64,000 nucleotides of DNA from Clostridia bacterium (GTDB lineage Bacteria; Bacillota; Clostridia; Oscillospirales; Acutalibacteraceae): positions 248,001-312,000 of the forward strand of contig JAKSQK010000001.1 in assembly GCA_024404145.1 (NCBI GenBank). The letters are read 5' to 3'. Below, piece after piece: positions 26,141 to 41,234 of this stretch. The notes under the pieces are model-generated. The model made no database searches and was not told the origin of the DNA. It worked only from the letters and a program-made list of their open reading frames with translations. The number at the start of each line of letters is the position of its first letter. Positions within the stretch are counted from its first letter, which is position 1. The position numbers and the translations under genes were made by a program.

Positions 26141-26224
26141 GCGGGTGTGGCGGAATTGGCAGACGCGCTAGCCTTAGGAGCTAGTGTCTTCGATGTGCAG
26201 GTTCAAGTCCTGTCACCCGCACCA
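26141..26224 (+). tRNA. tRNA-Leu (anticodon TAG)
   Basis: An 84-base class II tRNA with CCA encoded. The acceptor stem pairs GCGGGTG with CACCCGC, the anticodon loop is CTTAGGA with anticodon TAG, there is a long variable arm (TGTCTTCGATGTG region) and a normal T loop (GGTTCAAGTCC). It reads CUA. Confidence 0.95.
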
Positions 26225-26281: not shown

Positions 26282-26863
26282 TTTGACTTTTGCTGCTCTT
26301 TCCATTCTTCAAACTCTTTCTTGCCTTCTTCGGATTCAAAGAAGCTCAGATGTCCGGCAAGAATGTTGCAGCAAGGGATTCGATTACATCATGCGGAACA
26401 TTGCAAGTGGCTTTTTTACTGAGAAGCAACGATTTTATATATACTCTTATGTACTCTCTATCGGAAATTATTTTTCCGCTTTCATCGAAATCAACGAATT
26501 TTTCATAAATTCTTGAAAAACCAGAAGTATAGTTGAAACAAGATTTGTTGAATTTCTCAACAATTTCACGGCTTAAATACATTTTTCCTGAAGGAGATGT
26601 AGCGTAAGTCTTAGTAGAACTTTCCTTGAAGTTGTTAGAATATGTAACTTCTGCTTTACCAACTACTTTTCCGTTAGAATCATATGATTCTGTGGTGCTT
26701 TTATTAAATGGCTGTTCATCAAAGTTACAGAGAACATCAAAAGCATTCGGATACTCTACAACCGATTTTTTAACGAGCTTTTTATTTGAATTAAACTCTT
26801 CGATAGTTACTTTTGCAGTTTTGTCGCAAATTATTGCAGTAAGTTTTTTATCATTTACAAATC
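26282..26863 (-). pseudogene. decayed gene remnant, unknown family
   Basis: On the reverse strand a frame runs from a stop near 26865 to a TGA at 26346 and encodes about 170 residues of normal-looking, lysine-rich protein, including TTESYDSNGKVVGKAEVTYS and FVDFDESGKIISDREYIRVY. It has no ATG, GTG or TTG before 26582 and no ribosome site, so the 5' end is missing. At the 3' end a shift of one frame reads on as HLSFFESEEGKKEFEEWKEQ before a TAA near 26282, which looks like the original C-terminus after a frameshift. I do not recognise the family. The only shorter intact reading (26346-26582, 78 residues) would be the tail alone. It ends beside tRNA-Leu, a frequent insertion place. Nothing else is visible between 26280 and 26960. 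Confidence 0.6.
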
Positions 26864-26963
26864 ATAATAATTATGTTATCATAGTTTTAAATTATTGGAT
26901 AAAATAAGACCTTGTTATCAAAATGTTATTTTTATGTACATATTTCAAAAGAGGTTTACTTAG

Positions 26964-28154
26964 ATGAAAAAGATACTCCTTCTCGGCGGTTCTGAACAGC
27001 AGGTTATCGCCATTGATACTGCAAAAAAATTAGGGTATTATACAATATTATGCGATTATCTTCCGGATAATCCGGGCCAGTATCATGCCGATAAGTTTTA
27101 TCAGGTCAGTACTACGGATATGAATGCCGTATTAACGGTTGCAAAAGAAAACGGGATAGACGGTGTGTTGGCGTATGCCTCCGACCCTGCTGCGCCTACT
27201 GCCGCATTCGTTGCAGAGCAACTTAACCTGCCTACTAATCCTTTTGTTTCGGTTAATACCTTATGCAACAAAGATTCTTTGCGCATATTTCTTAAAGAAA
27301 ACGGTTTTGCAGTTCCGTTTTCAAAAGGTTTTACTTCGTTAGAAGATGTACTAAAATTTCAAGATAGTTTTGACTATCCGATTATTATTAAACCGGTTGA
27401 TTCATCGGGTTCAAAAGGCATTACGGTTTTGCAAAACAAGAGCGGTCTTAAAGAAGCGGTGGAATTTGCCTTATCTTTTTCAAGAGGCAAGAGAATCATA
27501 GTTGAAGAATTTATCGTGAGAGACCATCGTTATTTAATCGGCGGAGATATATTTGTAATTGACGGCAAAGTTAAAATTTGGGGTTTGCTTAACTGCCATA
27601 GAGACAGCAATGCCAACCCGTTGGTTCCGGTCGGCAAGAGTTATCCGTTGGCTTTGAATGACAGCCAGACAAAGCTTGTTAAAGAAACACTTCAAGAACT
27701 TGTTAATAAACTCGAAATTCGTTTCGGAGCAATGAATGTTGAACTTATTATTTCTCAAAACGGCAAATGTTATTTAATTGATGCAGGGCCGAGGGCAGGG
27801 GGAAATATGATTCCCGATTTGCTTCAAATGATAACCGGCGTTAATATTGTTGAAATGGCTGTTAAGACAGCGATGGGAGAGTCGATTAAATGTTCGCCCG
27901 ATACAAGAATCAGTTATTATGCAACGCATAATCTCCACAGTACAAAAAACGGTATTTATAAAAGTATTATTTTTGATGAAAAAATTGAAAAGTTTATTGT
28001 TAAAAAATGCCTGTATAAAAAGAAGGGCGATAAAGTCGAGTTTTTCGATAATGCAAGTAAAGCTCTGGGCATTGTTTTTATGAAATTTGAAAATGCAGAG
28101 CAACAAAACATTTTAGAAGACATCTATAATCATATAAAGGTTGAATTAGAATGA
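26964..28154 (+). CDS. ATP-grasp ligase (first of two)
   Basis: This 396-residue protein has the fold of ATP-grasp carboxylate-amine ligases, in the carbamoyl-phosphate-synthase/PurT-like group. Residues 1-110 are a Rossmann-like N-terminal domain (KKILLLGGSEQQVIAIDTAKKLG). The ATP-grasp core has YPIIIKPVDSSGSKGITVL, the hinge VEEFI, and the metal-binding end AMNVELI...YLIDAGPRAGGNMIP. Such enzymes join a carboxylate to an amine through an acyl-phosphate; the substrates are unknown. AAAAGAGG precedes the ATG. The stop overlaps the next start (ATGA), so it is coupled to the PLP protein. Relatives occur in cell-surface polysaccharide and peptide-like metabolite clusters. Confidence 0.85.
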   Translation: MKKILLLGGSEQQVIAIDTAKKLGYYTILCDYLPDNPGQYHADKFYQVSTTDMNAVLTVAKENGIDGVLAYASDPAAPTAAFVAEQLNLPTNPFVSVNTLCNKDSLRIFLKENGFAVPFSKGFTSLEDVLKFQDSFDYPIIIKPVDSSGSKGITVLQNKSGLKEAVEFALSFSRGKRIIVEEFIVRDHRYLIGGDIFVIDGKVKIWGLLNCHRDSNANPLVPVGKSYPLALNDSQTKLVKETLQELVNKLEIRFGAMNVELIISQNGKCYLIDAGPRAGGNMIPDLLQMITGVNIVEMAVKTAMGESIKCSPDTRISYYATHNLHSTKNGIYKSIIFDEKIEKFIVKKCLYKKKGDKVEFFDNASKALGIVFMKFENAEQQNILEDIYNHIKVELE

Positions 28155-29116
28155 AAGAAATAGGCGGTTATTTTGGACTGGAAAGTTTTAAGAACAACGG
28201 CGGCGAATATTATAAAGATTTAATAGCGCTAAATACTGCTCGAAATGCGCTGGTATATTTTGTTAAAGTCCAAAAAATCAAAAAGATTTTTATTCCGTAT
28301 CTTCTTTGCAATTCGGTTTCTCTTGTTTGCGACAGGGAAAACATTGAGTATGAATATTATAATATTGACGAGAATTTTCTTCCCGTTTTCGACCGTCAGT
28401 TAAAGAATGATGAATACCTTTATGTTGTCAATCTTTACGGGCAAATTGCAAATGCAAAATTAGAGGAGTTAAAAAACAAGTATAAAAATATTATTGTAGA
28501 TAATATTCATGCGTTTTTTGAAGAACCGATAAAGGATACAGCTACAATTTACTCTTGCAGAAAGTTTTTTGGTGTTCCTGATGGCGCTTATCTGTCATCG
28601 AAATCGGTTTTAAGCGATGATTTGCCCAATGATAATTCTTCGGGCAGAATGGCGCATATTTACGGAAGAATTAAAGACGGCGCTTCGGCGCACTATGCGG
28701 AATTCAAAGCCAATGATGAATCGTTTAAGTCGCTTCCGCTTATGAAAATGTCGGAGCTTACCCATAAATTGCTTTCGGAAATTGACTATAAAAGGATTAT
28801 AGCAGTAAGAGAACAAAATTATTCCTATTTATATAATAAACTCGGCGGGTTTAATAAACTTAAATTATGTATTCCAAAGGGTCCTTATGCCTATCCTTTC
28901 TATTGCGAGAACGGTTTGGAAATCAAGAAAAAACTTGCCCAAAAGAAGATATATATTGCAACGCTTTGGCCTAATGTATCCGACTCGGGACAAGCCCTTG
29001 AAAAAGATTATGCAGAGAACATTCTGCCGTTGCCTATCGACCAACGATACGGCATTGACGAGATGAATTTTATATGTAAAGAAATAATGTCTATCTTGCA
29101 AAATAACGATATGTGA
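28151..29116 (+). CDS. DegT/DnrJ/EryC1/StrS-like PLP-dependent protein
   Basis: This 321-residue protein resembles the DegT aminotransferase superfamily, shorter than usual (about 370). The N-terminal ALNTARNALVYFVKVQKIKKIFIPYLLCNSV matches the family's opening substrate and cofactor segment, IIVDNIHAFFE the aspartate that contacts the PLP ring nitrogen, and YSCRKFFGVPDGAYL the segment where the PLP lysine would be (the K of RK is the candidate). It may make an amino sugar or amino acid for the ligase encoded upstream, but an inactive or altered enzyme cannot be excluded. It overlaps the first ATP-grasp gene by four bases. Confidence 0.75.
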   Translation: MKEIGGYFGLESFKNNGGEYYKDLIALNTARNALVYFVKVQKIKKIFIPYLLCNSVSLVCDRENIEYEYYNIDENFLPVFDRQLKNDEYLYVVNLYGQIANAKLEELKNKYKNIIVDNIHAFFEEPIKDTATIYSCRKFFGVPDGAYLSSKSVLSDDLPNDNSSGRMAHIYGRIKDGASAHYAEFKANDESFKSLPLMKMSELTHKLLSEIDYKRIIAVREQNYSYLYNKLGGFNKLKLCIPKGPYAYPFYCENGLEIKKKLAQKKIYIATLWPNVSDSGQALEKDYAENILPLPIDQRYGIDEMNFICKEIMSILQNNDM

Positions 29117-29124
29117 GGTAAGTT

Positions 29125-30078
29125 ATGGATGTAGAAAAAATCGGAAAGGCGATAAAGGAACTGCGCCAAAAAGCAGGCTATACTCAGGCGGAGTTAGCGC
29201 AATGTTTGGAAGTAACGGATAAAGCAATATCCCGATGGGAGAGGTGCCTTGGCATTCCCGATACATCTTTACTTGCAAAACTTTGCGACTTGCTTAATGC
29301 CGATATAGACAATCTTTTAGAGGGCAACATAGCATATCTTGAACATTCTTGGAAGGGTGTGCTTATATTAAAAGAAAACGAAGCGGAAATTATGCCCGAT
29401 ACAAGATTCGGCGGTAAATGTTCCGTTTACTTTCCCATAAGTTATTTTCTTTTGGCGGGTATTAAAAACATAACTGTTGTCGGAAGTGAAAAGTATATAA
29501 ATTCTGCAAAAAATATCCTTTCAGACGGAAAGAATTACGGAGTCGATATATCTTATTCGCTCGACGAAAGCGAAGCTTTTAATAACAACGAGCCATGTAT
29601 GGTTGTTTCTTCTGATGTTTTTATATACGGTTCTAATCTTACAAGATGTTTTCAAAGGGCAATAGCCGGAAACGGCGATGTAACATATATTGTTATACCG
29701 CAGTCAAAGTGCAGTAACATGGTTTATTTTGATAATTCGCATATCGTTAAAAATTATTGCCATATGTCTGAAAAGTTTGAAAGAATACCGATAACATTCT
29801 ATAAAAATGCCAATATGTATCTTAAAAACAACGGCAAAAAAACAAACCCCATTGTTATGGCGCAACGGCTTAGCAGGGGAATGATATACCGAAAAATTGA
29901 AACATGGAAAGATGTAAACGATGTTTCAAATTTCATTTACTTTACCGAAGAAAATACGGGAGATTATATGTATTGTCTTGAAGAAATTGCCCTAAACAGA
30001 GGACTGATTTCAAAATCACAACTTCAAAGTTTGGCTGATGAAAATACAAAATACGGCAAATATCTTTTATCGTTATAA
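29125..30078 (+). CDS. XRE-family HTH fused to a degenerate RmlA-like nucleotidyltransferase domain
   Basis: This 317-residue protein has two parts. Residues 1-68 are an XRE/Cro helix-turn-helix (YTQAELAQCLEVTDKAISRW). Residues from about 78 align by eye with sugar-1-phosphate nucleotidylyltransferases such as RmlA: YFPISYFLLAGIKNITVV, then NILSDGKNYGVDISYSLDES, then VVSSDVFIYGSNL, where D164 matches the metal-binding aspartate. The nucleotide loop GGxGTR of active enzymes is replaced by KENEAE (83-88), and the following QLLPV-type segment is missing, so catalysis is doubtful. It may sense a nucleotide or sugar-phosphate and control its own cluster. A GAGG ribosome site and nine-base gap link it to the PLP gene. 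Confidence 0.78.
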   Translation: MDVEKIGKAIKELRQKAGYTQAELAQCLEVTDKAISRWERCLGIPDTSLLAKLCDLLNADIDNLLEGNIAYLEHSWKGVLILKENEAEIMPDTRFGGKCSVYFPISYFLLAGIKNITVVGSEKYINSAKNILSDGKNYGVDISYSLDESEAFNNNEPCMVVSSDVFIYGSNLTRCFQRAIAGNGDVTYIVIPQSKCSNMVYFDNSHIVKNYCHMSEKFERIPITFYKNANMYLKNNGKKTNPIVMAQRLSRGMIYRKIETWKDVNDVSNFIYFTEENTGDYMYCLEEIALNRGLISKSQLQSLADENTKYGKYLLSL

Positions 30079-30090
30079 TATTTTTTACTA

Positions 30091-30127
30091 AAACACCGCA
30101 ATCCAAAGAGGGATTGCGGTGTTTTTT
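30091..30127 (+). terminator. terminator after the HTH-NTase gene
   Basis: AAACACCGCAATCC and GGATTGCGGTGTTT form a perfect 14-bp stem with a 6-base loop and a T run. It splits the cluster into two transcripts. Confidence 0.94.
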
Positions 30128-30144
30128 TGTAAATGCAACATCGG

Positions 30145-30204: not shown

Positions 30205-31479
30205 ATGTATGAAGATTTAATTGGCAAGAAACTTTTAATAATTGGTTCCGAAAAGGTCGATGCAAGTATTGTTACTGCGGCAAAAAGTCTTGGAATTTAT
30301 ACAATAGCCGTTGACGGCAATAAAAAGTCGGCATCAACATTTGCAAAAAATGAGGCAGATGAATCTTGGGATATAGATTATCGCTTGACAGATGAAATAT
30401 GTGAAAAATGCCGTCAAGCTGAGGTTGACGGTGTAATAGCGGGATATAGCGAATACCGTGTTGCTGCTGCATGTGAAATTGCAAATAAACTCGGAAAACC
30501 TTTTTATGCAACCCAAAAGCAAATCGAACTTACAAGAAACAAAAGAACTTTTAAGGATGAATGTATTAAATATGGAATAAATGTTCCGCATGATTATTGT
30601 TTTAATCATGCTCCTTTCGATGAAGAAATCGAATCCATGCGTTTTCCGCTTATCGTTAAGCCGACTGATTACGGCGGAAGAAAAGGAATAACGGTATGTT
30701 TCAAAAAAGAAGAATTGAAAAATGCCGTTGAGTATGCGCTTTCCTTGTCGAAAAGCAAAACAATAATTGTTGAAGAATATATTATAGGAAAAGAATTTAC
30801 GGCGGTTTATTCGCTTTCAAACGGAGAAATGGCACTTACCTGTTTGAATGAAAAATATATAAATGAATCGCAGGAGAGAATGACGGGATTATGTGATTTA
30901 ACTATTGCTCCTTCTAAAAGTGTAGATTTGTTTGTTAAGAGTGTTGACAAAAAAATCAAAGATTTTTTAAGGGGAATAGGTGCCGAAAACGGAGTTGCAT
31001 TTTTTCAGGGCATTGAAAAAGACGGCGAATTCTATATTTTTGAAATGGGATATAGATTAAACGGCGGAAACGACTATTTTTTAGTTGAGCAAGAGCATGG
31101 TATCAGTTATATGAAAATGCTGATTTCCTATGCTTTAACCGGAAAAATGGGCGACGATATAAAGAAAAATAATCCGTTTTTCAATTCCTACCATGCAAAT
31201 TATTTAATTTATGCTCATGAAGGTACGGTTAAGGATATAGAATATCCAAAACCGGGCGAAATTGCAGGAATAGACGAATCAACGCCAAATATGGTTTCGG
31301 GTTGCAAAATCAAAGAAGACGGCTCAACCGGTCAAAAAGCATTTTCTTTCAAGATCACTTCAAATTCACTCGACCAAATAAAACAAACGATAACTCAAAT
31401 CAACCGCAGCGTTAAATTTACTGATTCGCAAGGAAATAATATGCTGTTTGAACCGTTTGATGTTAATAAAATATCATAA
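30205..31479 (+). CDS. ATP-grasp ligase (second of two)
   Basis: This 424-residue protein is a second ATP-grasp enzyme, clearly diverged from the first. The start is the ATG at 30205, seven bases after AAAGGAGGA; an in-frame ATG at 30133 lacks a ribosome site. Domains are an N-terminal Rossmann-like part (KKLLIIGSEKVDASIVTAAKSLG), the ATP-binding FPLIVKPTDYGGRKGITV, the hinge VEEYI and the metal-site end FFQGIEKDG...YIFEMGYRLNGGNDY. A C-terminal domain of about 90 residues follows. Substrates are unknown. Two different ATP-grasp ligases close together suggest two successive couplings in one pathway. Confidence 0.85.
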   Translation: MYEDLIGKKLLIIGSEKVDASIVTAAKSLGIYTIAVDGNKKSASTFAKNEADESWDIDYRLTDEICEKCRQAEVDGVIAGYSEYRVAAACEIANKLGKPFYATQKQIELTRNKRTFKDECIKYGINVPHDYCFNHAPFDEEIESMRFPLIVKPTDYGGRKGITVCFKKEELKNAVEYALSLSKSKTIIVEEYIIGKEFTAVYSLSNGEMALTCLNEKYINESQERMTGLCDLTIAPSKSVDLFVKSVDKKIKDFLRGIGAENGVAFFQGIEKDGEFYIFEMGYRLNGGNDYFLVEQEHGISYMKMLISYALTGKMGDDIKKNNPFFNSYHANYLIYAHEGTVKDIEYPKPGEIAGIDESTPNMVSGCKIKEDGSTGQKAFSFKITSNSLDQIKQTITQINRSVKFTDSQGNNMLFEPFDVNKIS

Positions 31480-31509
31480 CAATAATTTTTTTTGTAAAGG
31501 AGCAAAATA

Positions 31510-32868
31510 ATGACATCTGCTTTAATTTATTTAGGAATTATGATAGCCGTAATTCTTATATGGTTTACGGTTATAAAGCGACCGATTTATGAATCGATTT
31601 TAGTCAGCTTTTTACTACTTGTCATTATCAGCGGTAATATATCGCATATTTGGGATTATATTTATTCGGGCCTTTCAACATCGCTTTTGTATTCGATGAC
31701 CGTTTTCGTTGCTATGTCGATTATTCTGACAAAAACTAAGATTATCGACGGCGCAATAGAAATAATTTTGGCGCTTTTAGGCAGAATACCGGGAGGCGCC
31801 GGATATGTTGCGGTGATAGCGAGTAGTTTTATGGGAGCGCTTTCGGGCTCGGGTCCCGGAAATGTTATGGCAACCGGAACAATTACTATTCCGGCAATGA
31901 AAAAATCGGGATTTTCCGATGAACTTTCCGCAAATATTACCAGTGCTTCAAGCTGTCTTGGAAATATGATACCGCCGTCATCAACTATTGTTGCCGCTTT
32001 GGGTTTGCTTACGGGATTATATCCCGAAATGAATATCTCAACCGGTAAATTTTGGATAGTATGTTGGGGCTGTTCGCTATGGTTTATTCTTTTAAGACTT
32101 ATACTTGTTTTTATTTTCTGCAAACGAGATAAGGTAAAACCGATGGCGAAAGATGATATTCCACCGCTGAAAAAAGTAATAAAAGACGGTTGGAGAGGAC
32201 TGCTTTTGCCTATTATCATCTTTCTTCCTTTCTTATTGGACTATCTTTATAAGGATTCATTCTTTACAAAAAGATTAGGCGAAACCGGTGCTAAAAATAT
32301 GTCAAGTTCGCTGCTTTACTTCATCGCCGGTCTTGCTACCATTTATGCAATGGCGGTTATTAAGGATAAAAAGCAGGTAAGGTTAACAGAAATTGCAAAG
32401 ACCTTCGGCGAGAAACTTAAAAGTATCGTTCCTACTATTGCCGTTTGCTTATTCGGATATATGTTCGGCGCTTTGTTTAACGATATGAATGTTGCCGAAG
32501 GCATTGAATCGGGAATTGCAGCATTAGATATAGGAAAGGTCGGTTTATGCATCGTTGTTCCGCTTCTTACTTGTATTCTCGGCATAGCCATAGTCGGCTC
32601 GTCTATGGTTGTTGTATTCGGCGGAATGTTTATATCAATGTTTGCGGCTGTCGGAGTAAATCCTTTGCTTATTGCGGCAATGCTTCCGTGTATTTGCGGA
32701 GTAATGTCAAATATGGTACCCCCGATTGCACCGGCATTTTTGGCAGGAGTAAGTCTTTCGGGTGCAGATTTCTCAAAAGCGGTTAAAAACGATTTTTGGT
32801 GGATAATAACGCAATATTTACTTGAAATTGTTGTACTTCTCGGATGGCTTCCGATACTTGGAATGTGA
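31510..32868 (+). CDS. TRAP-type transporter large permease (DctM family)
   Basis: This 452-residue membrane protein has about 12 spans and the internal repeat pattern of TRAP/DctM permeases: GALSGSGPGNVMATGTITIPAMKKSGFSDEL and SSCLGNMIPPSS in the first half, and CGVMSNMVPPIAPAFLAGVSL in the second. TRAP systems are sodium-driven importers of organic acids that need an extracytoplasmic binding protein; none is encoded here. The only partner is the next, two-helix protein. So direction and substrate are open; a carboxylate or N-acyl sugar would suit the ligase neighbours. An AAAGGAGC ribosome site precedes the ATG. Confidence 0.82.
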   Translation: MTSALIYLGIMIAVILIWFTVIKRPIYESILVSFLLLVIISGNISHIWDYIYSGLSTSLLYSMTVFVAMSIILTKTKIIDGAIEIILALLGRIPGGAGYVAVIASSFMGALSGSGPGNVMATGTITIPAMKKSGFSDELSANITSASSCLGNMIPPSSTIVAALGLLTGLYPEMNISTGKFWIVCWGCSLWFILLRLILVFIFCKRDKVKPMAKDDIPPLKKVIKDGWRGLLLPIIIFLPFLLDYLYKDSFFTKRLGETGAKNMSSSLLYFIAGLATIYAMAVIKDKKQVRLTEIAKTFGEKLKSIVPTIAVCLFGYMFGALFNDMNVAEGIESGIAALDIGKVGLCIVVPLLTCILGIAIVGSSMVVVFGGMFISMFAAVGVNPLLIAAMLPCICGVMSNMVPPIAPAFLAGVSLSGADFSKAVKNDFWWIITQYLLEIVVLLGWLPILGM

Positions 32869-33510: not shown

Positions 33511-33586
<76 letters not shown>

Positions 33587-36297: not shown

Positions 36298-37524
36298 ATG
36301 GAAAAAATCACAGTAAAAACATTAAAAACTGTAAAGACGGCATTACTCTGTTTTATACTGACACTTTTGGTTGTCGGTATGAGCGGATATAAGGTAAATG
36401 CGGCGATACATAGATTTGATGAAGGCGAAGTATTTGAAATACCTATCGGTGGTATTCTGCAAGAAAAAGCCGAATTGAACAGTATAAAAAACATTGCGGT
36501 TGATACTGAAACGACAACGGCGAATGTTAAAGTGCTTAGCATAAAACAAGCCGATGACTCCGAAAATGTTATAGTTAAATGTAAAGCGCTGAGTTACGGT
36601 TATTTCAGACTTAATTACCAAAGGTACGGCTATAGTTTCGATAGCAACGGCAGTTGGGAAGACAGATGGAATGCTCTTTATATTACACCGATCGTCGGCG
36701 CAAAAGAAGAAAGAACATTAACTTTGAAAAATGTTAAACTAAGCAATGAAAATGTTCCGAATAACATTAAAGACATTAAGTCCGCCAACCCCGATATTCT
36801 CGAATTTCTTTCGGCAAAGAATGTAAAAGACGGTGTTGAGGTTACAGTAAGAGCAAAATCTGCCGGTATGACATATTTGACTTATAAGTCATATTTTGAA
36901 GATAATTGGTATAACGATATATTCGAAATCAAAACTGTAAGCGGTTTAATAAGCGAAGATATAAAAATTACCGCAAATGATATTAAAATCGGAACTGATA
37001 AAAAAGATATAAAATTAAGCGGATACAATAGTTCCGATATGGATTTGGAAAATGTTTATCTTCTGAACTCCAAGGGCGATAAAACGGACAAGGTTGATTC
37101 CAAAGGAACATATACATTAGTTGCCGTTTTTAAGGCAAAGGGTGCTATGAGTTTTAAGGAAAGCAACGATACTCAAAATGAATATGCAGGAAAAATAACG
37201 GTAAATGCGATAAGCGAAAAAGGATATATCGGTTTAAGTGCAACCGATAAGCCGTCGGTTGTATATGATTTTGAGGGCGAATACAAGTACCTCTTGGTTG
37301 AACATAAATTTGAAGTAAAAGGGGAAAGTGAAACAACAAAAACCCCCGAAAAGAATGACGACAGCGCCAAAAACGAAGGAAACCCCGTAATAAACAAAAC
37401 ACAAAAGCCAACCGTTTCTCCGAAAACAGGCGATAACGGAAATATTTATTTTTGGGCTTTTGCGTCAGGTTTCAGTATGTTAGCCATTGCTTTTTTCATA
37501 GCAAAAAGAAAACATGAAAACTAA
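36298..37524 (+). CDS. secreted surface protein with LPxTG-like sorting signal
   Basis: This 408-residue protein has a signal peptide (residues 1-36, hydrophobic LLCFILTLLVVGM then VNAA) and a C-terminal cell-wall sorting signal: SPKTGD, a membrane span (FWAFASGFSMLAIAFFIA) and KRKHEN. The motif is SPKTG rather than LPxTG, which is a common variant. The body is beta-rich and has no domain I recognise; about 40 residues before the anchor are rich in T, K, E and N and look like a wall-spanning linker. No sortase gene is in the window. It is a single-gene unit with promoter and terminator. Confidence 0.82.
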   Translation: MEKITVKTLKTVKTALLCFILTLLVVGMSGYKVNAAIHRFDEGEVFEIPIGGILQEKAELNSIKNIAVDTETTTANVKVLSIKQADDSENVIVKCKALSYGYFRLNYQRYGYSFDSNGSWEDRWNALYITPIVGAKEERTLTLKNVKLSNENVPNNIKDIKSANPDILEFLSAKNVKDGVEVTVRAKSAGMTYLTYKSYFEDNWYNDIFEIKTVSGLISEDIKITANDIKIGTDKKDIKLSGYNSSDMDLENVYLLNSKGDKTDKVDSKGTYTLVAVFKAKGAMSFKESNDTQNEYAGKITVNAISEKGYIGLSATDKPSVVYDFEGEYKYLLVEHKFEVKGESETTKTPEKNDDSAKNEGNPVINKTQKPTVSPKTGDNGNIYFWAFASGFSMLAIAFFIAKRKHEN

Positions 37525-37527
37525 TGA

Positions 37528-37563
37528 AAAATATCCACCCATTTAGCGGGTGGATATTTTTTT
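37528..37563 (+). terminator. terminator after the surface-protein gene
   Basis: AAAATATCCACCC and GGGTGGATATTTT form a 13-bp stem with a 7-base loop and further T. Confidence 0.92.
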
Positions 37564-37583
37564 GAAAATATACGATTTTTGTC

Positions 37584-37612
37584 TTTACAAAAAGCATATT
37601 ATATGGTATATT
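37584..37612 (+). promoter_or_regulatory. promoter of the beta-helix/PHP/STAS-kinase operon
   Basis: TTTACA (37584-37589) and TATATT (37607-37612), 17 bases apart, about 50 bases before the first gene. Confidence 0.65.
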
Positions 37613-37662
37613 ATTAAAATAAATAACACAATTTATTGTGGTTTGGAAAACGAGATGTATTT

Positions 37663-39018
37663 ATGCGCTATACTGTAAACAGTTCTGGATATGATTATAC
37701 AAAAAAAATTAAAGGTTGTTGCCAAGATAAAGCAGACAACCTGAAAAATAAAATACTTAATTCTGTAAATACAGAAGAAATATATGATATAAAAGGGAAA
37801 AAATATTATATTGCCAAGGATATGAGAATAGAAGATATTCCTGCCGAGTTAAAAGAAGGCGATGCCGTTCTTTTTGAACGGGGCGGTTTATGGAGAATAT
37901 CTTATGGCAACGGTATTGTGTTACCAAACGGTGTTACCATAGGGGCTTACGGTACGGGTGATAAACCTAAGTTTTACGGCTCAACAAAAAACTATGCCGA
38001 TAATAACATTTGGGAAAAAGTTGAATGCAATTTATATAAAACTTTTTTGCCCGGCGGTAATCCCGGAATTATCGTTTTTGATGACGAAGCATGTCTCGGC
38101 GTTAAAAAATGGACTCTCGATGATGTTAAATCAAACTACGATTTCTTTTACGAATATGAAACGGAATATATTTATTTTTATTACGAGGGCAATATCGGCG
38201 AAGATTTTAATTCTATAGAAATAGGGCAGAGAGGAAACCTTATAACAATAAATTCAAATTGTGTTGCAGATAACCTATGCGTTAAATATACGGGTTCCCA
38301 TGGTATAGTTGTTAACACTTCTTGCGAAAATGTTTCGATTACCAACAATGAAATCGGCTGTTTGGGCGGTTCTATGCAGTTTGGTACAACCCGTTTCGGC
38401 AACGGCATTGAAATTCAACTCGGCTCTGTAAATTCTCTTGTAAAAAACAACTATGTTTATGAATGTTATGATGCCGGAATAACCTTCCAAACCTGGACAA
38501 GCGCAAATTTAGAAACAAGTTATCATAATGTAAACTTTATCGAAAACCTAATCGAAAACTGCTCTTATGGTATTGAATTCTTTACCACAAATAAGGACGA
38601 TAACGGGTTATACAGCGACTATAAAGACATAACTTTTGAAAGTAATATTATTCGCTTTTCGGGATATGAATGGTCGCAACTTCAGCGGCCTGACCCTTGG
38701 ATGAATTCGCATATCAGAGGCGGAAACTGGGCTTATGTTCCGGACTGCGAAAACTTTAATATTGTAAATAACATTTTTGATATTTCAAGAGCTTCTATGA
38801 TTTTCTGGTGGTGGCATGATGAAAAGAAAGGATATTTACATCCCGTTAAACACCCCGGTCTTACGGTAAAACACAACTGTTTTTATCAGGCAAAAACTGC
38901 CGATGGCAGGGTTATGAACTTCTATGAAAATGTCCCTGTTTATGCCGAAACAAAAGAAGATTATATAAAAGCGGTCAAATCGTTTGATTCAAATCCCAAT
39001 GAAGTTGTATGGTTTTGA
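37663..39018 (+). CDS. right-handed parallel beta-helix protein
   Basis: This 451-residue protein has no signal peptide, so it appears cytoplasmic. The ATG at 37663 is preferred over a GTG at 37636. After an N-terminal domain, the middle reads as successive beta-helix turns rich in N, V and I (NCVADNLCVKYTGSHGIVV, NVSITNNEIG, SLVKNNYVYECYDAGITF, NVNFIENLIENCSYGIEF, DITFESNIIRFSGY, NFNIVNNIFDIS). Such folds are typical of polysaccharide lyases, epimerases and glycoside hydrolases. I cannot name a substrate or catalytic residues. Its operon partners are a PHP phosphoesterase and a STAS-kinase. Confidence 0.75.
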   Translation: MRYTVNSSGYDYTKKIKGCCQDKADNLKNKILNSVNTEEIYDIKGKKYYIAKDMRIEDIPAELKEGDAVLFERGGLWRISYGNGIVLPNGVTIGAYGTGDKPKFYGSTKNYADNNIWEKVECNLYKTFLPGGNPGIIVFDDEACLGVKKWTLDDVKSNYDFFYEYETEYIYFYYEGNIGEDFNSIEIGQRGNLITINSNCVADNLCVKYTGSHGIVVNTSCENVSITNNEIGCLGGSMQFGTTRFGNGIEIQLGSVNSLVKNNYVYECYDAGITFQTWTSANLETSYHNVNFIENLIENCSYGIEFFTTNKDDNGLYSDYKDITFESNIIRFSGYEWSQLQRPDPWMNSHIRGGNWAYVPDCENFNIVNNIFDISRASMIFWWWHDEKKGYLHPVKHPGLTVKHNCFYQAKTADGRVMNFYENVPVYAETKEDYIKAVKSFDSNPNEVVWF

Positions 39019-39035
39019 TAATAAGGTGAGTTAAA

Positions 39036-40037
39036 TTGGCTAAAAAATATATATTATGTAAAAACGGTAATGATTATAAAGCAAATATGCATTGTCATTC
39101 AACAGTTTCCGACGGCATATTTACTCCTTGTGAACTTAAAGAAATGTATATGCAAGAGGGTTACAGCATCATTGCTTATACCGACCATGATTTGTTTGTT
39201 CCGCATTTAGACCTTTGCGATGAAAATTTTTTGGCGTTGAGCGGATATGAGATGGAATTCTACGATTATGATACTACCGAAGATTTTAATATTATGAGAA
39301 CTACTCATCTTAATATGATTGCGCTTGACCCTAATTTGGATTTACAGCCATTTTATCATAGAAAAAGATATTTTATCGGCAACGGTGTTAATAATAAGCA
39401 TATGATTAAATATGATGAATCCAAACCCGATTTTGTGAGATCTTATACGCCGGAATGCGTTAATATGGTTATGCGCGAATGTAAAAAACTCGGCTTTTTC
39501 GTTACATATAATCATCCCCGCTGGTCGCTCGAAAACTATGAGATTTACAGCAAATATGACGAAATGAACGCTCTTGAAATTCTAAACGGCAGTTCACTTG
39601 CCGAAGGATACATAGAAAATTGTTTTCAAGCGTATGATGACCTTCTTTTACAAGGTAAAAAAGTTTTTGCAATAGCAGGAGACGACAACCATTCAAAACG
39701 AGATTCATTCTGGTGTTGGACAGTTATCAGAGCCAAAGATTTGGCATACGAATCTGTTGCAAAAGCGCTCAAAAACGGCGATTTTTATGCCACAAACGGT
39801 CCCGCATTCAACGAGATTTATATTGAAGACAATGAACTTGTTGCAAAAACAAGTGATGTTAAAAGCATAACATTCTCAACTAATTGCCGCCATGCGGGAA
39901 TTTCTATTGACAGAGCAAATAATAAGCCGGTAAACGAGGGTAGATTTAAGCTCAATAAATATGATAAATATGTTAGAATTACCGCTTTCGGTATGGACGG
40001 TACCATAGCATATTCTAATCCGTATTTTATTAAATAA
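39036..40037 (+). CDS. PHP-domain metal-dependent phosphoesterase
   Basis: This 333-residue protein has a PHP-type domain with the metal-binding signatures NMHCHSTVSDG near residue 18, AYTDHDLF near residue 48, YNHPRWS near residue 165 and GDDNHS near residue 223. PHP enzymes hydrolyse phosphoesters such as histidinol phosphate or nucleotides; this one is not HisK-like in length and its substrate is unknown. A C-terminal region of about 70 residues may be a small beta domain. The start is a TTG at 39036 behind AAGGTGAG, 17 bases after the beta-helix gene. Confidence 0.82.
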   Translation: MAKKYILCKNGNDYKANMHCHSTVSDGIFTPCELKEMYMQEGYSIIAYTDHDLFVPHLDLCDENFLALSGYEMEFYDYDTTEDFNIMRTTHLNMIALDPNLDLQPFYHRKRYFIGNGVNNKHMIKYDESKPDFVRSYTPECVNMVMRECKKLGFFVTYNHPRWSLENYEIYSKYDEMNALEILNGSSLAEGYIENCFQAYDDLLLQGKKVFAIAGDDNHSKRDSFWCWTVIRAKDLAYESVAKALKNGDFYATNGPAFNEIYIEDNELVAKTSDVKSITFSTNCRHAGISIDRANNKPVNEGRFKLNKYDKYVRITAFGMDGTIAYSNPYFIK

Positions 40038-40052
40038 ATAACGAGGTGCATT

Positions 40053-41234
40053 ATGGAAATTGTTACATCAAAAATCGAAGGTAAAGTTTTATTTATTATT
40101 CTGAAAGGCAGAATAGATTCTCAAAATGCCGCAGATGTTGAAAACAAAATTACAACTATCAAAGGCGAAAATAATTTTGAGGACATTATTATTGATGCCG
40201 AAAGTCTTGAATATATTTCAAGCGCCGGACTTAGAATTATTTTACGGCTTCGCAAGGAATATCCAAACATTAAAATTATAAATGTTTCAAGCGATGTTTA
40301 TGAAATTTTCGATATGACCGGTTTTACCGAAATGATTAAACTTGAAAAGGCATACAGAAAACTTTCGGTAGATGGTTGCGAAATTATCGGAAGAGGTGCT
40401 AACGGAGAGGTTTACCGCCTCGACCCCGATACAATTATTAAGGTATATCTTAACCCCGATTCTTTGGACGATATCCACAGAGAAAGAGAACTTGCAAGAA
40501 GAGCATTCGTTTTAGGTATTCCTACGGCAATTCCTTATGATGTTGTTAAGGTTGGAAACAGCTACGGTTCGGTTTTCGAACTTCTTAACGCACAGTCTTT
40601 TTCAAAAATCATAAATGCCGACCCGTCAAAAATCGATGAAGTTGTAAAAATGTTTGTAGACCTTCTTAAAAAAATTCATTCTACCGAAGTTTTGCCGGAA
40701 GATATGCCCGATATGAAGGCGGTTGCTCTCGACTGGGCAGATTTCTTAAAAGATTATTTGCCTTCGGATAAATGGCAGAAATTGTATAACCTTATTAAAG
40801 CCGTACCGGAATCTAATATGATGATGCACGGCGACTATCATACAAAAAATGTTATGCTTCAAAACGGCGAAGTTTTACTTATTGATATGGATACTCTCTG
40901 TCATGGCTACCCGATATTTGAATTTGCCTCGATTTTTAATGCTTATATCGGCTTTAACAAGCTTCAAGAAGATAACGCTCCGTCTTTTCTCGGAATACCC
41001 GATGAACTTTTAGTACCTTTCTGGGAGAAAACCATTACGGCTTATTTTGAAACTGATGATAAAGAGTATCTTGATTCCGTTACCGATAAAGCATCACTCA
41101 TAGGATATACAAGACTAATGAGAAGACTTATCAGAAGAAATGGACTTGAAGACGAAAAGGGCAGAGCCAAAATTGAGTTCTATAAAGAACAAATTTTAAC
41201 TCTGCTTGACCGTGTTGATTCATTAGAATTGTAA
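40053..41234 (+). CDS. STAS domain fused to an aminoglycoside-phosphotransferase-type kinase
   Basis: This 393-residue protein joins two modules. Residues 1-105 are a STAS domain as in anti-sigma-factor antagonists (VLFIILKGRIDSQNAADVE and IDAESLEYISSAGLRIIL, where the serines before AGL mark the usual phosphorylation site). Residues about 110-393 are an APH/ChoK-like kinase: EIIGRGANGEVYRLDPDTIIKVY, the catalytic HGDYHTKN (Brenner motif) and LLIDMDTL for metal. The kinase may phosphorylate a small molecule, and the STAS part may link it to a signalling switch; both are inferences. It is the last gene of the beta-helix/PHP operon. Confidence 0.85.
   Translation: MEIVTSKIEGKVLFIILKGRIDSQNAADVENKITTIKGENNFEDIIIDAESLEYISSAGLRIILRLRKEYPNIKIINVSSDVYEIFDMTGFTEMIKLEKAYRKLSVDGCEIIGRGANGEVYRLDPDTIIKVYLNPDSLDDIHRERELARRAFVLGIPTAIPYDVVKVGNSYGSVFELLNAQSFSKIINADPSKIDEVVKMFVDLLKKIHSTEVLPEDMPDMKAVALDWADFLKDYLPSDKWQKLYNLIKAVPESNMMMHGDYHTKNVMLQNGEVLLIDMDTLCHGYPIFEFASIFNAYIGFNKLQEDNAPSFLGIPDELLVPFWEKTITAYFETDDKEYLDSVTDKASLIGYTRLMRRLIRRNGLEDEKGRAKIEFYKEQILTLLDRVDSLEL

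Follow-up and report, generated by a model that had tools for sequence, protein, structure and literature searches.

Enzymes, or enzyme-like domains, serve as transcription factors or are joined to them in NadR, BirA, GabR and PurR. The described system whose build is nearest to that of the protein treated here is BzdR of Azoarcus sp. CIB, in which an XRE helix-turn-helix (HTH) is combined with a shikimate-kinase-like sensor; this sensor has a P-loop kinase fold with benzoyl-CoA as its ligand, and the regulatory role was judged to require that the activity of the ancestral enzyme be lost (PMC3602430). Enzyme-derived regulators also include HutC and FarR, which carry chorismate-lyase-like sensors, and Gal80 (PMC3602430).

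The window, that is, the whole stretch of 64,000 nucleotides of a Clostridia bacterium that was analysed, encodes a protein (P0001) in which an XRE domain is fused to a domain homologous to RmlA, the glucose-1-phosphate thymidylyltransferase. Its parts are the following:

29125..30078, + strand: gene of the XRE-RmlA-like fusion P0001, 317 aa; intact ORF, with a homologous fusion in genome G627
29140..29322, + strand: XRE/HTH_3 domain, putatively DNA-binding, residues 6-66; PF01381, 8.4e-10, with the G627 HTH 57% identical and the model pLDDT in agreement
29350..30075, + strand: RmlA-like domain, in all probability catalytically dead, residues 76-317; TIGR01207 at 4.5e-20, VIA Z 25.5 to 3pkp_L
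29371..29388, + strand: KENEAE replacing the GGxGTR nucleotide loop, residues 83-88; alignment to 80 RmlAs
29395..29430, + strand: residues 91-102, PDT..(8-residue deletion)..GGKCSVY for PxTxxxSKQLLPxYDKPMIY; alignment, with PDT..xGKxSVY common to G627
29905..30075, + strand: C-terminal helices, residues 261-317, the best-kept RmlA part of P0001; 11/14 columns

The first-pass annotation, made from the letters alone, had placed an XRE DNA-binding domain at the N-terminus, and Pfam indeed assigns residues 10-62 to HTH_3 (PF01381, 8.4e-10) with 39 bits against a gathering score of 23, a score that the fusion of G627 also exceeds with 50.6 bits. The two HTHs share 57% identity over residues 1-67, and in the predicted model this region has a pLDDT of mostly 88-98. 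NF006015, the BzdR-type model, matches P0001 weakly and only through its HTH part (residues 4-68). From this family assignment the XRE domain is predicted to bind DNA.

Homology of the C-terminal part to RmlA is evident from profile searches. Residues 98-316 match RmlA: TIGR01207 in two stretches (E 4.5e-20), PRK15480 at 1.9e-15, and crystal structures of the enzyme from 1.7e-14, the value for 1lvw, which is matched separately by residues 98-150 and 246-316. Alignment with seven and then with 80 RmlAs shows that the homology starts at W76-K77-G78, which corresponds to the M-K-G of RmlA, and extends to the C-terminus; the segments LAGIKNITVV, DGKNYGVDISY and SSDVFIYG line up with RmlA as had been proposed. 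With 71.9 bits for P0001 and 30.1 bits for the G627 fusion, both miss the TIGR01207 equivalog cut-off of 360.65. Folding of P0001 as a single sequence gave a pLDDT of 38, and a second model, built from an alignment of 15 XRE and 80 RmlA sequences, reached a pLDDT of 79.7 and a pTM of 0.69. Its top structural matches in Foldseek and VIA-align 2 are all RmlA (Z 22-25.5, up to 241 residues, rmsd of about 2.5-3.4 A), led in VIA-align 2 by 3pkp_L (Z 25.5, 237 aligned residues, 2.7 A), and UDP-glucose pyrophosphorylases score a Z of about 15 (15.6 for GalU). A nucleotidyltransferase match thus runs across the domain, and the outcome named beforehand as contrary to the reading, a C-terminal part with no structural match to this fold, did not occur. 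The model agrees with the sequence searches and is supporting rather than independent proof, because its alignment consists largely of RmlAs whose N-termini were misplaced onto the HTH columns, so that the fold match draws chiefly on the part of the protein from about residue 118 onward.

The catalytic apparatus of RmlA has largely disappeared from this domain. The replacement of the GGxGTR loop by KENEAE and the shortening of the next segment had been recognised at first reading, and the alignments bear out both, with eight residues around SKQLLP missing. The damage goes further than was described then: when 80 RmlAs from many phyla are aligned, 113 columns reach a conservation of at least 90%, and in P0001 39 of these are intact, 54 substituted and 20 deleted, so that 74/113 strongly conserved columns are lost. 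The losses comprise the GLAQAF nucleobase segment, GE(L/I)EIT, the Asp of AWLDTG and the Lys of SKQLLP. Retention is uneven, at 4/18 columns from the nucleotide loop to the Lys, 1/9 in the nucleobase segment, 2/11 in the GRGxAWLDTGT part, 7/31 in the middle part, 8/17 in the region of the YYPLS..LAGI helix and 11/14 in the C-terminal helices. The first member of the metal-binding Asp pair (LGDN, AWLDTG) is present as D164 and the second has become K257; in the G627 fusion the second is also changed and BLAST aligns the first to L. With KENEAE in the loop, no SKQLLP segment and most of the invariant RmlA residues gone, catalysis by this domain is very unlikely. Every deletion relative to RmlA removes complete codons, and the reading frame stays open; for random codons of matching composition, an open frame over the RmlA part has a chance below 3e-6.

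A survey for the same fusion and its neighbours, proposed together with the first description, yielded one homologue among 398 genomes drawn from the phylum (G627:C98:4731-5576, 282 aa, 2e-38). It belongs to another class than the window genome and is 34% identical to P0001 over 307 aligned columns (BLASTP, E 3e-55), with the conserved stretch lying at residues 73-182. The eight-residue deletion at the SKQLLP segment is common to both proteins, as are the non-RmlA residues E73, S75, W76, D92, G97, S100 and V101, followed by Y107, T117, G120, A128, N130 and S133; the loop itself differs (KENEAE in P0001, NYKDG in G627), and the G627 protein ends at RGM, so that its final helices are missing, as is the EE of CLEEIA. 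These shared derived residues, together with the same deletion, argue for a single origin of the XRE-RmlA fusion and for selection, rather than decay, of the remodelled RmlA domain in two distant genomes. A maximum-likelihood tree groups both fusions (100/100), with both branches at the length limit, so that it is silent on their place of origin within RmlA.

The fusion was not seen in 98 relatives of the host, 60 of them of the same genus, and no further one appeared in draws of 391 genomes from the class and 394 from the order; these draws overlap, and in the large ones scoring was limited to the top candidates of each genome. It did not turn up in phage, plasmid or viral records either, where the plasmid and phage matches listed were plain RmlA or plain XRE proteins throughout. 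Pattern scans of genome contigs and viral contigs found no close relatives of P0001; the genome-contig scan, guided by an RmlA alignment, returned at least 80 plain RmlAs and does not thereby bound the size of the family. The XRE-RmlA family is thus rare in the genomes searched, a statement that sets no limit to its size.

The fusion is the last gene of a three-gene co-directional operon, closed by a terminator, beyond which a second unit lies:

26964..28154, + strand: ATP-grasp ligase-like protein, operon gene 1; Pfam PF02786 and PF13535, 34% to the G627 ATP-grasp protein
28151..29116, + strand: diverged DegT-like (PLP aminotransferase-fold) protein, operon gene 2; weak DegT profile match
30090..30132, + strand: intrinsic terminator with a perfect 15-bp inverted repeat, a 6-nt loop and a T run, 11 bases past the fusion gene
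30205..31479, + strand: second ATP-grasp protein, in a separate unit past the terminator; Pfam, 32% to an ATP-grasp protein of genome G044
31510..32868, + strand: DctM-type permease beside the second ATP-grasp; PF06808 at 6.8e-47, 44% to the G044 permease

The DegT-like gene shares 4 bases with the ATP-grasp gene and stops 8 bases short of the fusion. Its product has no convincing Pfam match, is only weakly related to the DegT profile (E 0.0024, probability 12%) and was not found in any of the 98 relatives; an Asp (VDNIHA) and a Lys (SCRKFFG), judged by eye, presumably occupy the corresponding positions of PLP enzymes. The operon contains no glycosyltransferase gene. Upstream of it, the best candidate for an operator palindrome, 26901-26932, sits between a promoter-like site and the start codon of the operon, and it is equalled by 57% of shuffles and so is not significant.

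Other features of the surroundings may be recorded here. In G044, a genome of the same genus, homologues of the second ATP-grasp protein (32%) and of the permease (44%) lie beside a sugar transferase and a DegT aminotransferase. This pair of an ATP-grasp and a DctM-type permease recurs in glycan clusters (L053 1230-3872 in G044; 30205-32868 in the window), where TRAP partner genes were not seen. The region with both ATP-grasp units is flanked by tRNA-Leu and tRNA-Met genes (26141-26224 and 33511-33586), and its G+C content is slightly lower (36.1% vs 38-39%); an acquired island would fit these flanks, this composition and the absence of the DegT-like gene from relatives. Between tRNA-Leu and the operon, at 26300-26870 on the minus strand, runs a long open stretch with no proper start, which is interrupted close to its end (...TFLPDI*, with KKEFEEWKEQQKSK following in a different frame) and looks, from its sequence, like a decayed gene. 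Farther on, positions 36298-41234 encode an LPXTG-anchored surface protein and a beta-helix protein, after which come a PHP-like protein and a STAS-domain/kinase-like fusion, both recognised by eye; this may be another surface module.

The second fusion lies in a surface-polysaccharide cluster with the gene order glycosyltransferase, EpsG-type polymerase, glycosyltransferase, flippase, fusion, aminotransferase, ATP-grasp and epimerase, where both glycosyltransferases are our assignments by eye. The fusion gene is directly upstream of the aminotransferase gene, which the ATP-grasp gene follows. The best model for this aminotransferase is DesI, that of the dTDP-4-dehydro-6-deoxyglucose (dTDP-4-keto-6-deoxyglucose) aminotransferase, at 9.9e-86 and 288 bits, below the cut-off of 650. 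The DegT-like protein of the window gives no BLAST alignment with it. Compared with the product of the first operon gene in the window, the G627 ATP-grasp protein shows 34% identity over its full length, and with the window's second ATP-grasp protein it shares only 22%; the linkage of ATP-grasp and fusion in 2/2 cases is only suggestive, because ATP-grasp genes of similar likeness are also present without a fusion. In genome G070 a relative of the G627 aminotransferase is followed by rmlA and rmlB. A locus of that genome (L005) considered as a further fusion was rejected, as it is an ordinary rmlA beside rmlB and a DesI-like gene.

The host genome encodes a normal RmlA of 292 aa about 105 kb from the fusion on the same contig (G000:C1:171794, L016), only 23% identical to the RmlA-like domain of P0001, and an RmlB (469 bits; G000:C6:15942, L161), while RmlC and RmlD above the cut-off were not found there. 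The two genes occupy separate, non-clustered places. With RmlA and RmlB present and RmlC and RmlD not, dTDP-4-keto-6-deoxyglucose would be makeable and dTDP-rhamnose would not, at least by the usual route, and the former could be going to an amino sugar.

The reading that we prefer, with a probability of roughly 60%, makes P0001 a transcription factor of the one-component kind: its dead RmlA domain would detect a sugar nucleotide or sugar phosphate from surface-glycan synthesis, and the protein would thereby adjust its own cluster. In this model the N-terminal XRE helix-turn-helix would sit on DNA, and the C-terminal RmlA, its catalysis lost, would act as a dimerisation or oligomerisation domain and as the ligand sensor. 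The ligand would be a sugar nucleotide or a sugar phosphate of the surface-glycan pathway, with a dTDP-sugar as first candidate, and transcription of the cluster in which the fusion lies would be adjusted to it. Both ligand and autoregulation are what we infer for P0001; a dTDP-4-amino-sugar or a related compound is suggested by the RmlA and RmlB complement of the host together with the DesI-like neighbour in G627. The choice of ligand is a guess, as the nucleobase segment is gone and the metal-binding Asp residues are gone or not conserved in G627. The initial proposal of an enzyme fold reused as a sensor within the cluster that it may control stands as far as the RmlA fold, the catalytic loss, the operon with its sugar-nucleotide-type genes and the second lineage are concerned, and is weakened on the side of control by the lack of a significant operator palindrome. 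BzdR provides a precedent for the preferred reading; counting against it are that only two members are known, that glycosyltransferase genes are missing from the window operon, and that its DegT-like protein and the G627 aminotransferase give no BLAST alignment.

Where the ligand would bind is a matter on which the conservation patterns pull in two directions. The feedback site of RmlA, rather than a remodelled active site, might have been kept, with the ligand in the old allosteric pocket between monomers. In P. aeruginosa RmlA this pocket lies at the monomer-monomer interface, with Leu45, Glu255 and Ile256 among its named residues, where control of RmlA is thought to act, and dTDP-L-rhamnose inhibits RmlA (PMC8613358). 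In our own residue mapping P0001 keeps these three as L110, E287 and I288, and its C-terminal helices retain 11/14 conserved columns against 28/99 elsewhere (Fisher p 0.0004, for a region chosen after the fact); however, that choice of region was post hoc, the pocket's Arg259 and His119 have become N and T, and G627 is without much of the region, the conservation between the fusions being that of residues 73-182. We consider such a site quite improbable and favour the remodelled active-site cleft, which houses the parts that the two fusions have in common. RmlA is a tetramer, and the domain could instead assemble with the true RmlA of the cell; it would then read how much of the enzyme is present or in which state, or else modulate it as a pseudo-subunit. 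The normal RmlA encoded on the same contig would provide the partner, and the C-terminal helices and the YYPLS..LAGI helix of P0001 are better kept than its catalytic parts, but the early end of the G627 fusion, which takes away its final helices together with the EE of CLEEIA, and the identity of only 23% between partner and domain make this assembly improbable too, if a shade less so.

The remaining explanations deny the domain a sensory role or leave it an enzymatic one. A functionless relic, formed by chance fusion with a decaying rmlA, would explain why nearly all genomes searched lack the fusion and why the C-terminal part has a low G+C of 34%; the open frame over that part, hardly attainable by chance, and a second member with shared derived residues and an identical deletion render this highly improbable. 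A bifunctional regulator with residual nucleotidylyltransferase activity, similar to NadR, would be in keeping with the RmlA fold retained in the model and with D164 at the position of the LGD Asp, yet that Asp is not conserved in G627, and P0001 has none of the GGxGTR loop, the SKQ Lys, GLAQAF or the AWLDTG Asp, so that we give it hardly any credence. The one-component sensor thus remains our preferred reading. Its more ambitious extension, an undescribed and sparse family in which a dead RmlA directly reads a dTDP-sugar or sugar-1-phosphate and sets glycan modules with an ATP-grasp and a DegT-type aminotransferase, is put forward tentatively and is rather doubtful as a whole.

There are few cases in which the steps from an enzyme to a transcription factor are readable from sequence, and here the nucleotide loop region of RmlA has been remodelled in one specific way in both of two diverged fusions. 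This ancestor is among the best-studied sugar enzymes, its active-site and allosteric complexes having been solved in many structures, and existing RmlA ligands and inhibitors would make testing quick. If P0001 is a nucleotide-sugar sensor, it would be a direct feedback switch on surface-sugar synthesis.

In comparison with known systems, P0001 resembles RmlA/RfbA (TIGR01207) by the full-length homology and the fold of residues 76-317, and differs from it by the loss of the catalytic loop and metal ligands and the addition of an HTH. BzdR shares with it an N-terminal XRE HTH, a linker and a C-terminal enzyme-derived domain, although its sensor is shikimate-kinase-like whereas that of P0001 has the RmlA fold. 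The early statement that no regulator of this build has been described holds for the RmlA type, of which none was found, and not for the general architecture of an XRE HTH with an enzyme-derived sensor, which BzdR already represents (PMC3602430). A literature search found no XRE-nucleotidyltransferase regulator. We know of no enzyme-derived regulator with an RmlA-type domain, and HutC, FarR, Gal80, NadR, BirA, GabR and PurR have other folds and ligands. The pairing of an XRE with an RmlA domain is thus rare and undescribed, and it adds to the known enzyme-derived regulators without introducing a new principle.
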